A stretch of DNA of 64,000 bases, taken from NCBI GenBank assembly GCA_903910555.1, contig CAIVZZ010000015.1:186001-250000 (forward strand), given 5' to 3'. The notes under the pieces were generated by a model. That model saw nothing but the letters and a program-made list of their open reading frames with translations, did not search any database and had not been told where the DNA came from. This stretch comes from an uncultured Gemmatimonadota bacterium. Its GTDB lineage: Bacteria; Gemmatimonadota; Gemmatimonadetes; Gemmatimonadales; Gemmatimonadaceae. How positions within the stretch are numbered: the stretch's first letter is position 1; each line of letters begins with the position of its first letter. Position numbers and translations under genes: made by a program. Positions 1 to 19,633 of the stretch are shown in pieces.

Positions 1-58
1 CATGTGTTAAGCACGCCGCCAGCGTTCGTCCTGAGCCAGAATCAAACTCTCCAATGGT
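1..58 (-). rRNA. rrs: 16S ribosomal RNA, 5' end (partial)
   Basis: Read on the minus strand, bases 50-31 match the universal 5' 16S segment AGAGTTTGATTCTGGCTCAG, followed by GACGAACGCTGGCGGCGTGC. This is the start of a small-subunit rRNA gene whose remainder lies before the window. The mature 5' end is placed near 58 by comparison with other bacterial 16S genes; the exact base cannot be set from sequence alone. An rRNA-type promoter lies upstream at 268-297. Confidence 0.97.
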
Positions 59-6294: not shown

Positions 6295-6391
6295 TGGCGG
6301 GAGCGTATGGGAATCGAACCCACCCAACCCGACGTCGTCAGGTCGCATCAGTTTTGAAGACTGAGCCATTCACCAGAATGAGAACGCTCCC
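6295..6391 (-). tRNA. selC: tRNA-Sec (selenocysteine, UCA anticodon), CCA encoded
   Basis: Minus strand, 94 nt plus an encoded CCA. The bacterial 8+5 form is seen: 8-bp acceptor GGGAGCGT/ACGCTCCC, 5-bp T-stem around TTCGATT, 6-bp D-stem TCATTC/GAATGG with a 4-nt loop, a long variable arm, and anticodon stem TCAGT/ACTGA around CTTCAAA. Anticodon TCA is at 6357-6355. It reads UGA as selenocysteine when SelB and a SECIS are present. Its 5' 44 nt are also the 3' end of selD. Confidence 0.96.
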
Positions 6392-13630: not shown

Positions 13631-16450
13631 TCAGGCCGTGTTCGATGCGAGCGTCCGCGCGACCGTTTCCTTGCGGTAGCACTCGAGCAGGTCGCCGACC
13701 TTGATGTCGTTGAAGTTCTCGACACCGATACCGCACTCGAATCCGTCCTTCACTTCCTTCACATCGTCCTTGAAGCGGCGCAGCGAGCCGATGATGCCGT
13801 CGTACACTTCGACACCATCGCGAATGACGCGCACGCGGCCCTGACGGTTGATCACGCCGCTGCGCACGTGGCAGCCGGCGATCGTGCCGATCTTCGAGAC
13901 TTTGAAGATGTCGCGTACTTCGGCCTCGCCAAAGACGACTTCCTTTTCGTCCGGGCGCAGCATGCCTTCGAGTGCCGCGCGCACATCCGCCACGGCCTCA
14001 TAAATGATCTTGTAGAGCTTGATCTCGACGCCTTCACGCTCGGCGGCCGAACGCGCTTTGTTGTCCGGGCGCACGTGGAAGCCGATGATGATCGCGCCCG
14101 CGGCCTTGGCGAGCAGGATGTCGCCCTCGGTCACCGCGCCGACCGCGCGCTGAATAACTTCGACCTGCACTTCTGCGTTCGAGAGCTGCGACAGCGCGTC
14201 GGCGAGCGCTTCCGCCGGGCCGCCCTGGTCCGCCTTGATGAGCAGCTTGAGCGTGCGCTTCTCGCCTTCTGCCGCGTGAGCGATGAAATCTTCCAGCGAA
14301 ACCGCGCCCTTGCTGGTGCGGCGGCTCTTGGCTTCGCGATCGAGACGCTCACGACGCTGTGCAATTTCACGAGCTTCGGTGGAGTCTTCGACGACGAGGA
14401 ACTGATCGCCGGCCATCGGGACGCCGACCATGCCGAGCACCTGCACCGGAATCGCAGGACCCGCTTCTTTTACCGGCTTGCCGCGCTCGTCGAACATCGC
14501 GCGGACGCGGCCGGAGAAGAGACCGCAGATGAAGTCGTCGCCGACATGCAGCGTGCCGTTCTGGACGAGCACCGTTGCCACGGGACCCTTGCCTGCGTCG
14601 AGCTGCGCTTCGACGACGGATCCGGTCGCCTGACGCGACGGGTTCGCCTTGAGATCGAGGATTTCCGCCTGAAGCAGAATCTGGTCGATCAGCGTCTGCA
14701 CGTTGGTGCCCTTCTTTGCCGAAATTTCCGAGTGCAGGACCTGACCGCCGAACTCTTCGAGCACGACGCCGTGCTGGAGGAGCTCCTGCTTGACCTTCAT
14801 CACGTTCGCGGTGGGGAGATCCACCTTGTTGATCGCGATGATGATCGGCACGCCTGCATTTTTTGCGTGCGAAATCGCTTCGATCGTCTGCGGCATCACC
14901 GAGTCGTCGGCTGCGACGACGATCACGACGATATCCGTGACCTGCGCGCCGCGCGCGCGCATGGCCGTGAACGCTTCATGGCCCGGCGTGTCGAGGAAGG
15001 TGACCTGTTTGCCGCTTGCGGTCGTGACGTGATAGGCGCCGATATGCTGCGTGATTCCGCCCGCTTCGCCCGCGACGACATTCGCTTTGCGGATGAAGTC
15101 GAGCAGCGAGGTCTTACCGTGGTCGACGTGACCCATGATCGTGACGACGGGCGGACGCGAGCGAAGTGTTTCCGGCGCGTCGGCGACGGTCTCGACCGCA
15201 GATGCCGCGTACTCTTCTTCTTTCTGCGCGTTGAATCCGAACTCGCTGGCGATCAACTCGATCTGATCGAAGTCGAGGCGCTGATTGATGGTGACCATCA
15301 GGCCAAGATTCTTGAACGCGAACGAGACGATTTGTGTCGCGGGCACTTTGAGAATGTCCGCGAGTTCGCTCACCGTGATGAACTCGTTGACGCGGACGAG
15401 TTTCTTCTCGACCTCGGCCGCTGCTGCACGCATTGCTTCGACTTCTTCACGCGATCCGTCGTCGCGCGATCCGCGACGCTTGGGGCCGGGTCCGCCCATC
15501 TGGCGCATCGTGCGCGAGATGTTCGCCGACACCGCCTCTTGATCGACCTGACCGCGCTTCCCCTTTTTGCGACGGCCCGCCGAAGGAGCAGGCGCGCCCA
15601 TTCCACTCTGACTCGACCCACCACCGCCACCGCTGCTCGGACGGCGATCGTCGCGACGTGAAACGCCGCCACCGCTGCCGGTGCCCGGCGTGGCCGACGC
15701 AACGGGACGCGGCGGGAACGACATCCCGCTCGTGACCGGACGCGGGCGCGGCGCGCCCGGAACGACAGAGCGCGGACGCGGACGGTCTGGTGTTGAATAC
15801 GGCCCCTGCGGTGCCGGATGCGGCGTGCTGGGTGCAACCGGAGCCGCTGGCGGCGCGTGCACCACCGGCGGTGCCGGCGGAGCTGCGTGCGCGCTGCCGG
15901 ACGAATCAGCCGTCGGCGCAGCGGGCGCAGGCTTCTCGACCGGCGCTGCTACGACGGGCGCAGGCTTTTCAACGACAACTTCTTTCTTCGGCGGTTCCGG
16001 CGCGACGATCTCTTCGACCGGCTCGGCGGCTTCCGCAATTTCTTCGGCGGTCGGTACGGGCGCGGCACGACGACGGCGCGTGCCCTGCTTCGCCTCCGGC
16101 TCGGGCTCGGGCTCGGGAGCCGGTGCGGCCTTCGCCTTGCTCTTGGGCGCGGCTTTGGCTTTTGGTTTCGCCGGCTTTTCATCGTCGTCGCCGGCCACGG
16201 CGGGCGCAACCGCATCAGCGGCGGCGCTCGTACGACGACGGCGTGCCGGCGCAGCAGACGGCGCAGCAGCCTTCGCCGCGCGGGCGCGCTTCTCGCGCTC
16301 CCAGCGTGCACGAGCGCGCGCCACCTGTTCGTCGGTGAGCTGCGTCAGGTGGCTGCGGACGACGACATCGAGCGACCGAAGCATGGTGATGACTTCGTCG
16401 CTCGGAATGCCGAACTCTGCCGCCAGATCATGAACCCGAAGCTTGTTCAA
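13631..16450 (-). CDS. infB: Translation initiation factor IF-2
   Basis: 939 aa. A GTPase that brings fMet-tRNA to the 30S P site. An N-terminal winged-helix piece ([21 protein letters not shown]) is followed by about 300 residues of Ala/Pro/Glu/Gly-rich linker. The IF2_N segment [19 protein letters not shown] follows at about 357-375. The G domain begins near residue 437 with [12 protein letters not shown], then [16 protein letters not shown] and INKVDLP. Domains II-IV complete the C-terminus ([15 protein letters not shown]). The linker explains the length relative to about 890 aa in E. coli. Confidence 0.97.
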
Positions 16451-16477: not shown

Positions 16478-16822
16478 TCAAACACCCCGAGCGGAATCGA
16501 CGATTCCGCGAATCCCTTTTGCCAGCTGCACGTCGACGATGCCAACCACCGCCGTCGAGTCCCTGCCCACTGCCGCGCCAAGCACAGCCGCGCTGATTCC
16601 ATCAACGATGAACACTCTCTTTGCCGTGAGCAGCGGGACGATTTTATCGAGACTGTTTTTCGACGCGTCGTTCGCGACGATCGCCAGTTTCAGCTTTCCC
16701 TTCGCCGCCGCTTCACGCGCCCGCTCAACGCCAATCACCGCCAGCCGTCCACGTACACCCAGCCCGGCCAGTCCCAGCACCTTTTTCCAAACGGCGGCGT
16801 CCTCCGCCTTCACCGATGCCAT
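16478..16822 (-). CDS. L7Ae/L30e family RNA-binding protein (YlxQ-like)
   Basis: 114 aa. The ribosomal L7Ae/L30e/S12e/Gadd45 fold is suggested by KVLGLAGLGVRGRLAVIG, LAIVANDASKNSLDKIVPLL and AAVLGAAVGRDSTAVVGIVD. It sits between nusA and infB, exactly where YlxQ is found in Firmicutes and other phyla. YlxR, usually next to it, is missing. Members bind kink-turn RNA; the target here is unknown. The start codon shares its first base with the nusA stop. Confidence 0.88.
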   Translation of the reverse strand: MASVKAEDAAVWKKVLGLAGLGVRGRLAVIGVERAREAAAKGKLKLAIVANDASKNSLDKIVPLLTAKRVFIVDGISAAVLGAAVGRDSTAVVGIVDVQLAKGIRGIVDSARGV

Positions 16823-18171
16823 CAGGCGGCCGCGCCGCCCTCCGGAGCTGCGCCTTCTGCCGCCTCATCGCCACCGCCATCCGCCGTGACTTCGTTGATG
16901 AACGCCATGAGACGATCGGCCTCTTCCGGCGCGATGCCGGCGAGCTTGAGGAAATCCTCGCGCTCGAGATCGATGATGTCGTTGAGCGTCCTGTAGCCGC
17001 CCGCTTCGAGCACAGCCACAGTTGCCGGCGGAAGTCCCTCGATATCGGAGAGCTTCACGTCTGCTGCTTCTTCAGTCTCTTCCTCGGGCAGCGGCGCGAA
17101 CAGCGGCACATCGCCGCCACGCTCCAGCCACTCGCGGCTCGAGTACAAATCAATTTTCCACTCGGTGAGTTCCGACGCGAGACGGACGTTCTGTCCGTTG
17201 CGGCCGATCGCAAGTGAAAGCTGGTCTTCGTCGACAACGGCCTGAATCGTCTTCGTTGCGGCATCGCTGAACACGCGGGCCACCTTTGCCGGCGCCAGCG
17301 CGAGCTTCGCGAAACGCTCCGGATCCGAAGACCAGGGCACGATGTCGATACGCTCACCGCCGAGTTCCTGCACGACGGCCTGCACGCGCGAGCCCTTGAG
17401 CCCGACGCACGCACCCACCGGATCGATCGAGTCATCCTTCGAGAACACCGCGATTTTCGTGCGGCTGCCGACTTCGCGCGACGACGCGCGGATCTCCACG
17501 ATGCCCTGCTGGATCTCCGGCACTTCGAGCTTGAAGAGCGCCTTCACGAACATCGCATCACCGCGCGAGAGCACGAGGCGCGGGCCTTTCGGCGTCTCCT
17601 CGATCTTCTTCAGCACTGCGCGAATCGGCTCACCCTGCTTGTAATCCTCGCGATGATTCTGCTCGCGATACGGGATGATCGCTTCGGCTTCGCGGAACTT
17701 GTTGAGCATGACGACGATTTTGCCGCGCTCGATCTGCTGGATTTCTCCGGAGAGCAGGTCGCCGACACGGTCGTTGAACTCGTCGCGAATTTTCGTGCGC
17801 TCGCCTTCGCGAACGCGCTGGATAATGCGCTGCTTGGCCGCCTGCACCGCGGAGCGACCGAACTCGGCGAAGTCGACCGGAATTTCCATGAGGTCGCCGA
17901 CCTGATATTCGGGATCCTCAAAGCGCGCCTCTTCGAGCGTGATTTCGCGGGCAGGATCAGCAACGAGTTCGACGACGGTCTTGAGCAGGACGATGCGGAT
18001 CTCGCCCTTGTCGTCGTCGATGTCGACTTCAGCCTGCACGGTCGGGCCGTGCTTCTTCGCGAGGGCGGCGTGAATGCCGTCCTGGAGCAGCTCGTGCAGC
18101 TCGGACCGCTCGATCTGTTTCAGATGCGAGAGGTCGCGAATTGCCGTGATAATTTCCGCCGAACCGGCCAT
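16822..18171 (-). CDS. nusA: Transcription termination/antitermination factor NusA
   Basis: 449 aa. It binds RNA polymerase and nascent RNA and affects pausing, termination and rrn antitermination. In order: N-terminal polymerase-binding domain (1-120), S1 domain (about 130-200, GEIQQIERGKIVVML), KH1/KH2 (about 225-350, including SIDPVGACVGLKGSRVQAVV and LAIGRNGQNVRLA), and a short C-terminal helix-hairpin-helix (about 375-435, LEREDFLKLAGIAPEEAD). The tail is Gly/Ala-rich. It lies 9 nt after rimP. Confidence 0.97.
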   Translation of the reverse strand: MAGSAEIITAIRDLSHLKQIERSELHELLQDGIHAALAKKHGPTVQAEVDIDDDKGEIRIVLLKTVVELVADPAREITLEEARFEDPEYQVGDLMEIPVDFAEFGRSAVQAAKQRIIQRVREGERTKIRDEFNDRVGDLLSGEIQQIERGKIVVMLNKFREAEAIIPYREQNHREDYKQGEPIRAVLKKIEETPKGPRLVLSRGDAMFVKALFKLEVPEIQQGIVEIRASSREVGSRTKIAVFSKDDSIDPVGACVGLKGSRVQAVVQELGGERIDIVPWSSDPERFAKLALAPAKVARVFSDAATKTIQAVVDEDQLSLAIGRNGQNVRLASELTEWKIDLYSSREWLERGGDVPLFAPLPEEETEEAADVKLSDIEGLPPATVAVLEAGGYRTLNDIIDLEREDFLKLAGIAPEEADRLMAFINEVTADGGGDEAAEGAAPEGGAAA

Positions 18172-18180
18172 CCTGGACTC

Positions 18181-18657
18181 CTACGGTTTCCAGTGGAACG
18201 CGAGGCGGGCTTCTTGAACGTCCGCCGGCGCCAACGTGATCTCATTTCCCTTGAGGTCGCGCACGAGATACTGCTCGTGCCCCACCTCACCCTGCACTTC
18301 AACAAGCTCGACTTCTACATACCCGCCAATCGCGGCGAACCGCGAACTCTTCACATTCGCACGGCGTCCGATGAACCGGCGCCAATCGGCGACGTTGTTC
18401 AACGGCCGTTCCATTCCCGGCGACGAAACTTCGAGCACGTACCGCCCGGCAATCGCATCGGGCATCGCGTCCAATCGCGCTTCGATTGCGCGCGATGCTT
18501 TCTCACAATCGCCGACGGTCACCTTTTCGAGGTCCCTGCGGTCGATACGAACATCCAAAACAGGCCGGCTCTTGCTCCCTCCGACCTTCATTTCAACAAG
18601 GTCAAATCCGAGCGAGTCAAGTTCAGCAACCACAATAGGTTCCAGTGTTTGCTTCAC
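18181..18657 (-). CDS. rimP: Ribosome maturation factor RimP
   Basis: 158 aa, required for 30S maturation. The N-terminal domain has LGFDLVEMKVGG, CEKASRAIEARLD and YVLEVSSPGMERPL (the family signature), and the SH3-like C-terminal part follows. It begins at a GTG (18657) with GGA 8 nt upstream. It is the first gene of the nusA-infB operon, and a terminator-like hairpin lies 33 nt upstream of its start. Confidence 0.95.
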   Translation of the reverse strand: MKQTLEPIVVAELDSLGFDLVEMKVGGSKSRPVLDVRIDRRDLEKVTVGDCEKASRAIEARLDAMPDAIAGRYVLEVSSPGMERPLNNVADWRRFIGRRANVKSSRFAAIGGYVEVELVEVQGEVGHEQYLVRDLKGNEITLAPADVQEARLAFHWKP

Positions 18658-18683: not shown

Positions 18684-18712
18684 AAAAAAATGTGGGGAGA
18701 ACTTCCCCCACA
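18684..18712 (-). terminator. Terminator-like leader hairpin ahead of rimP-nusA (candidate attenuator)
   Basis: On the minus strand a 9-bp stem (18712-18704 with 18698-18690) closes a 5-nt loop and runs straight into seven T residues (18690-18684). This is a textbook intrinsic terminator, but it points at rimP and ends only 27 nt before the start codon. There is no room for a promoter after it, so rimP transcripts must pass through it. On the plus strand it has no T tract. Confidence 0.75.
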
Positions 18713-18796
18713 TCTCGCCGGCGACCCCATTCATCGTTCAGCTACAACAATCATAGTTGTGAAGGGCGATACAGTCAAGGCGAGTGGGTGCTGTTG

Positions 18797-18907
18797 AGTC
18801 TGTGTCTAAGGTCTCTATGTCTAGCGTCTGAAAACACGCAGTTCGCAGTTCTCAACTGCAAACGGCGTGTTTTCAGACTCTAGACAGAAGACCTTAGACT
18901 GAAGACT
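18797..18907. repeat. 111-bp composite palindrome abutting the pgeF stop codon (element P2)
   Basis: Arms 18797-18850 and 18854-18907 pair around a 3-nt centre, with two compensating one-base slips in the outer part. The core GTCT recurs five times at 7-nt spacing when read from the pgeF side (AGTCTTC, AGTCTAA and variants). The inner hairpin is GCAGTT-CTC-AACTGC. The right end touches the pgeF stop (18908-18910). Same architecture as P1, P3 and P4 with different words. Confidence 0.9.
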
Positions 18908-19633
18908 TCAACCGACCGCTGACACGATCACCGCGACCTGTCGCCCGGCATCACCCGCACGATGGGAGAAAAACCGATCGTTGTCGCATTTGGTGCAGTG
19001 CGGACTCGCCGATAGCTGCCGCACGCCAACCTCTTTGGCCTGCTCGGCGAGGAGCGCACGGAGTTCGACGTTCCGATTACGGACGGTCTGCCAGCCGGTG
19101 AGCTGCTCGAATACATCAGGGCCGACCTGATAGCAGCGGCCGCAGATCGCGGGTCCAAGATGGACCCTGAGATCGGCCGCGTTGAGCCCTTGATCGACCA
19201 TGCGCGCGATTCCCTTCTGCACGATCTTCGCAGCGGTGCCGCGCCAGCCCGCGTGCAGCAGCGCAACGGCACCGGACGGATGTGCGATGAACACGGGAAC
19301 GCAGTCGGCGATCGTCACGACGCATGCCACTCCACCGGCCAGCGCCACGTGGCCATCTGCGCCGTCGTGGCGCGTCCAGCCTGGTTCGCCGGCGCCATGC
19401 TCCAACACGCGATCGCCGTGAATCTGACGTGCGCTCACCAGCCGGGGCGCAATCGCCGCGAACTCGGCGTGCAGCGCGTTCCAGCGTGCGACGGCATCCG
19501 CCGGCGGTTCGCCCTCGCCGAGTCCGTAGTCGCCGGCTGCGCGAGTCGTGATGAACGCCTCTACGCCGATCGACGCGAACGATTCGACCTTTTCGCGGAG
19601 AGGAATCGGCGCTGGCGACGACGCTGCGGTCAC
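18908..19633 (-). CDS. pgeF: PgeF/YfiH family peptidoglycan-editing factor (laccase domain)
   Basis: 241 aa multicopper-oxidase-like domain protein. Homologues in E. coli keep L-Ser out of peptidoglycan stems. Zinc-site motifs: [10 protein letters not shown] near residue 75, [26 protein letters not shown] and the C-terminal [20 protein letters not shown]. Its start overlaps the murA stop by 4 nt, so the two cell-wall genes are coupled. A palindrome starts right after its stop codon. Confidence 0.93.

Follow-up and report, generated by a model that had tools for sequence, protein, structure and literature searches.

Whether an operon that makes core transcription and translation factors is held back by a terminator in its own leader is the question raised by the region ahead of rimP in the 64-kb stretch of DNA analysed here (the window). 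Between pgeF and rimP, the minus strand at 18713-18684 reads GATGTGGGGGAAGTTCTCCCCACATTTTTTTGTCC, that is, a hairpin followed by U7 (Table 1). The stem pairs A18713-G18705 with U18698-U18690 and consists of 9 bp, eight of them Watson-Crick and one an inner G-U pair; its predicted stability is strong (about −15 kcal/mol) and the U7 runs without interruption. A sequence-only reading had placed an intrinsic terminator with a 9-bp stem and T7 ahead of rimP, and the element was indeed seen on the minus strand; its start, given earlier as 18712, was off by one base (18713), and the gap from the last T to the rimP GTG (18657) is 26 nt.

Table 1. Features of the rimP leader, its operon and the upstream gene, in window coordinates.
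Feature	Position	Strand	Remarks
pgeF	19633-18908	-	upstream of rimP
sigma70-type promoter (predicted)	18750..18778	-	-35 TTGACT (18778-18773), 17-nt spacer, -10 TATGAT (18755-18750); 10/12 matches
5′ segment of leader RNA (predicted), about 29 nt	18715..18743	-	start estimated 7 nt past -10
Terminator hairpin AUGUGGGGG-AAGUUC-UCCCCACAU	18690..18713	-	paired in all relatives; compensatory changes in 3/8 pairs
U7 tract	18684..18690	-	next base not U (G or A) in nearly all relatives
rimP, GTG start	18181..18657	-	PF02576
nusA	16822..18171	-	NusA_N, S1, NusA-like KH
L7Ae/YlxQ-like gene	16478..16822	-	PF01248
infB	13631..16450	-	IF-2 domains

A loose terminator match by itself means little, since a simple scan for such sites in 10 kb returned 10, against 8.4 in shuffled sequences. 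Under a strict definition (a stem of at least 7 bp with at least 5 G-C pairs, a loop of 3-8 nt, and T6), the rimP-leader hairpin is the sole canonical intrinsic terminator in the window and belongs to 6 strand-hits in a 464-kb sample of its own genome, for which 400 kb of stretches were used. The other strict hits examined in this genome are canonical terminators of the same build located at gene ends, which is what working terminators are expected to show. Such terminators are rare in this genome, hinting at heavy use of other modes of termination.

The window derives from a genome of Gemmatimonadaceae type. Comparison with related loci revealed the hairpin and its U tract in every one of 54 distinct rimP leaders sampled from Gemmatimonadaceae and close relatives, always with a G-rich 5′ arm, a C-rich 3′ arm and then a T stretch. 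The stem is paired in 100% of the cells counted, with three of eight pairs altered on both sides and four invariant. The observed pairing or covariation score was reached by none of 500 shuffles, and sliding the partner strand abolished the signal. Furthermore, the strict scan of 30 related loci (196 kb) returned 30 hits, all of them in rimP leaders, and none on the opposite strand. A covariance model built from the leaders found matches in 153 of 395 genomes from the phylum (E <=0.01), nearly always one per genome; among the matches listed, all 89 for which a rimP gene had been mapped sit 16-98 nt before that gene. In the window's own genome the model, which was built with this sequence included, gave one match (E 3e-8); the hairpin is therein single-copy, and no genome-wide regulon sharing it was found by this model.

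The terminator sits in the predicted 5′-UTR of the rimP-nusA-infB operon, the start of which is set by the predicted promoter. A TTGAC-like -35 with a 17-nt spacer, at a near-constant distance from the hairpin, recurs in most of the 54 leaders, the interval from the -10 to the U tract being 52-62 nt in most of them and 76-79 nt in one genus. No clear sigma70 promoter was found in the divergent loci L089-L091; these three loci keep the hairpin, and a different conserved upstream block, CTCACAGAGTTGCTTTCTG...ATATG...TAGATTTC, replaces the promoter. It is conceivable that the hairpin merely terminates an upstream pgeF/murA unit and has little effect on rimP, as pgeF precedes rimP in the same orientation in 49 of 60 loci. 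However, the hairpin follows the conserved promoter and stands only 26 nt from rimP, and it persists beside rimP in 10 sufficiently long loci in which pgeF was not seen upstream, which makes this explanation very improbable. The earlier proposal that operon transcripts must cross the hairpin is therefore upheld: the element is downstream of a conserved promoter, goes with rimP and not with the gene before it, and is kept throughout the phylum.

The same layout of promoter, hairpin and gene, with variant stems, extends to other families and to another class. Among 30 rimP leaders from other families of the order or class and from family f11 (related to the window genome only at the phylum level), 24 carried a hairpin with a T-run by the criterion applied. 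Of the remaining six, five have, by eye, a version that is imperfect or lies farther away, and L129 has none; in L128, the script chose a hairpin other than the rimP-proximal one. The variant stems include GCGGGC...GCCCGC in one group and GAGTGGGGC...GCCCCACTC in family f11. In these other families the start, estimated from promoter matches, is often followed by the hairpin within 0-10 nt, and in families f2 and f11 the predicted short RNA is 30-40 nt. Across these leaders, a putative terminator brake before rimP turns out to be conserved in the phylum Gemmatimonadota.

The leader in Gemmatimonadaceae has ~25-50 nt before the stem, which could in principle accommodate a classical riboswitch or antiterminator switch acting via alternative pairing, and a conserved alternative pairing upstream had been put forward as a feature to look for. 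It did not materialize: neither an antiterminator nor a larger conserved element was found in the 54 leaders. The 5′ segments self-fold better than dinucleotide shuffles in 33 of 39 nonredundant leaders (p 1e-7) and pair less with the 5′ arm of the terminator than shuffles in 31 of 39 (p 3e-4), although these shuffle-based p values overstate significance because the leaders are related by descent. Moreover, the 5′ segment lacks sequence conservation, several families have an estimated 0-10 nt of it, too little to build an antiterminator, and the leader has no Rfam match; a switch of this type is thus largely excluded. A self-folded 5′ segment, together with families that nearly lack one, speaks against an antiterminator and favours termination as the default. 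The mechanism of the B. subtilis nusA leader, reportedly described by Mondal in 2016, is likewise said to work without one.

The anatomy resembles a known element. The ‘rimP-leader' (Naville and Gautheret 2010; PMC2965389) features a terminator but no antiterminator, with NusA proposed as its regulator. Shared with it are the short terminator in the rimP-nusA-infB 5′-UTR, the G-rich 5′ and C-rich 3′ arms, the conserved stem sequence, the U tract and the lack of an antiterminator, as well as the distance from the gene (4-130 nt in the published element; 26 nt in the window). The cores differ: the published GGGc...gCCC corresponds to GUGGGG...CCCCAC in Gemmatimonadaceae, the core in the window being GGGG(...)CCCC with the inner G-U pair, whereas the exact published GGGC...GCCC motif is present in L125, L131 and several f2 leaders, from other Gemmatimonadota families. 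Via Rfam, the only rimP-leader model is the gammaproteobacterial RF01770, which concerns the same gene and the same terminator type, but which describes a tandem structure of 102 positions. Neither the window region nor 16 related loci scored above its gathering cut-off (47 bits), and no match appeared there even at a permissive threshold, while the E. coli control matched at 102 bits and contains GGGC-UUUA-GGCCC-U7; nor did any other Rfam family match the rimP leader. The main text of Naville and Gautheret 2010 (PMC2965389) does not mention Gemmatimonadota, and no publication on Gemmatimonadota rimP leaders was found in the literature searched. By its predicted anatomy, the element represents in Gemmatimonadota the known ‘rimP-leader' attenuator (Naville and Gautheret 2010). 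The rimP-leader having already been described in other bacteria, what is added here is the phylum-wide survey, which extends the proposed most widespread bacterial attenuator to a little-studied phylum and to a form that Rfam does not cover.

NusA-stimulated intrinsic termination in the 5′ leader of the nusA operon underlies NusA autoregulation in B. subtilis (reviewed in PMC12288461); the attenuation layout is alike, and by analogy NusA dependence may apply here. The leader of ~60 nt compares with the 180 nt that PMC2965389 gives for rimP transcripts of B. subtilis. In S. agalactiae, short and long transcripts of rimP-nusA-infB share a start, with termination 31 nt past it (PMC4448216), whereas the short RNA of the window, at ~60 nt, is predicted from sequence only. 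For E. coli, feedback of NusA on the operon is reported in work to which PMC2965389 and PMC4448216 refer. The suggestion of a leader attenuator like that of E. coli was borne out with respect to its layout, with a terminator between a conserved promoter and rimP; the B. subtilis leader is of this kind as well.

The leader is best read as a rimP-leader-type attenuator without an antiterminator, most likely fed back by NusA, and this reading is considered probable. RNA polymerase would start ~7 nt past the -10, near 18743, and after a leader of ~60 nt would meet the intrinsic terminator before reaching rimP. Formation of the terminator would be the default, with no antiterminator involved; part of the transcripts would end as a short RNA and the remainder would read through into rimP-nusA-ylxQ-infB, implying that termination is partial in the cell. 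Factors acting on the polymerase when it reaches the hairpin and U tract would set how probable termination is, and the operon-encoded NusA, which in the window retains its NusA_N, S1 and KH domains (Pfam), would most likely stimulate it, so that high NusA would lower its own synthesis. The order of promoter, hairpin and gene, its conservation, the covariation and the absence of a conserved antiterminator are established by comparison of the leaders; NusA as regulator of leader termination is most likely by analogy with B. subtilis, E. coli and S. agalactiae, the published work on the rimP-leader, B. subtilis and S. agalactiae making it the leading candidate. That some families place the hairpin right at the beginning of the RNA is an argument that control needs only the hairpin, the U tract and polymerase factors, and no antiterminator.

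In B. subtilis, terminators that depend on NusA are usually suboptimal, and it is at such sites that NusA matters most. With a strong hairpin and an uninterrupted U7, NusA may have little left to add here, and the attenuator could be real with another regulator, such as NusG, RimP or another operon product, or have no specific regulator and simply throttle a strong promoter to a fixed degree. Two features, A-U pairing at the base of the stem and a base other than U behind U7, are weakly suggestive of stimulation by NusA or NusG, and fit NusG-stimulated terminators as well; the near-invariant stem sequence could be the binding site of another protein, and RimP was mentioned as a possibility by Naville and Gautheret (PMC2965389). 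Yet there are reports of NusA feedback on the operon for B. subtilis and E. coli, and a proposal of it for S. agalactiae; a regulator other than NusA is accordingly rated as possible but rather unlikely. Rather unlikely, too, is the idea that an operon product, for example NusA or RimP, specifically recognizes the stem, which is near-invariant (AUGUGGGG/CCCCACAU) and carries G on its 5′ arm in every case; if so, the element, with its self-folded or missing 5′ segment, would be a minimal protein-read attenuator kept across the phylum, and not merely a stable hairpin.

A post-transcriptional role was also considered, in which the operon mRNA would be stabilized at its 5′ end by the hairpin, or else the short leader RNA would act in trans. 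A strong 5′ hairpin with a U tract is compatible with it, as are four f2 loci (L135, L138, L146 and L150) in which a U8 tract stops 0-2 nt short of the apparent rimP ATG, so that a Shine-Dalgarno sequence would not fit in between. However, an immediate U7 is needed by a terminator and not by a stabilizer, and it is kept in nearly all relatives; such a role is thus highly unlikely.

Several other features were noted in the window. A near-perfect palindrome of ~100 bp at 18793-18911, between pgeF and the rimP promoter, recurs at ~30 places in the genome and is not found at this spot in the closest relatives; it resembles a dispersed repeat of the mobile or REP-like kind. The GTTCTC that follows the U tract was tried as a boxA-like site and rejected: its bases are not kept outside the family, and the rimP leader holds no boxA-like site. 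The 16S rRNA gene begins at the edge of the window (1-57, minus strand), and its leader carries a boxA-like AGCTATTTGATAATTGAAC at about 216-234 on the minus strand, the best boxA-like site of the rrn leader being AGCTATTTGATA. Finally, a tRNA-SeC gene is located at 6295-6391 on the minus strand, suggesting that selenocysteine is used.
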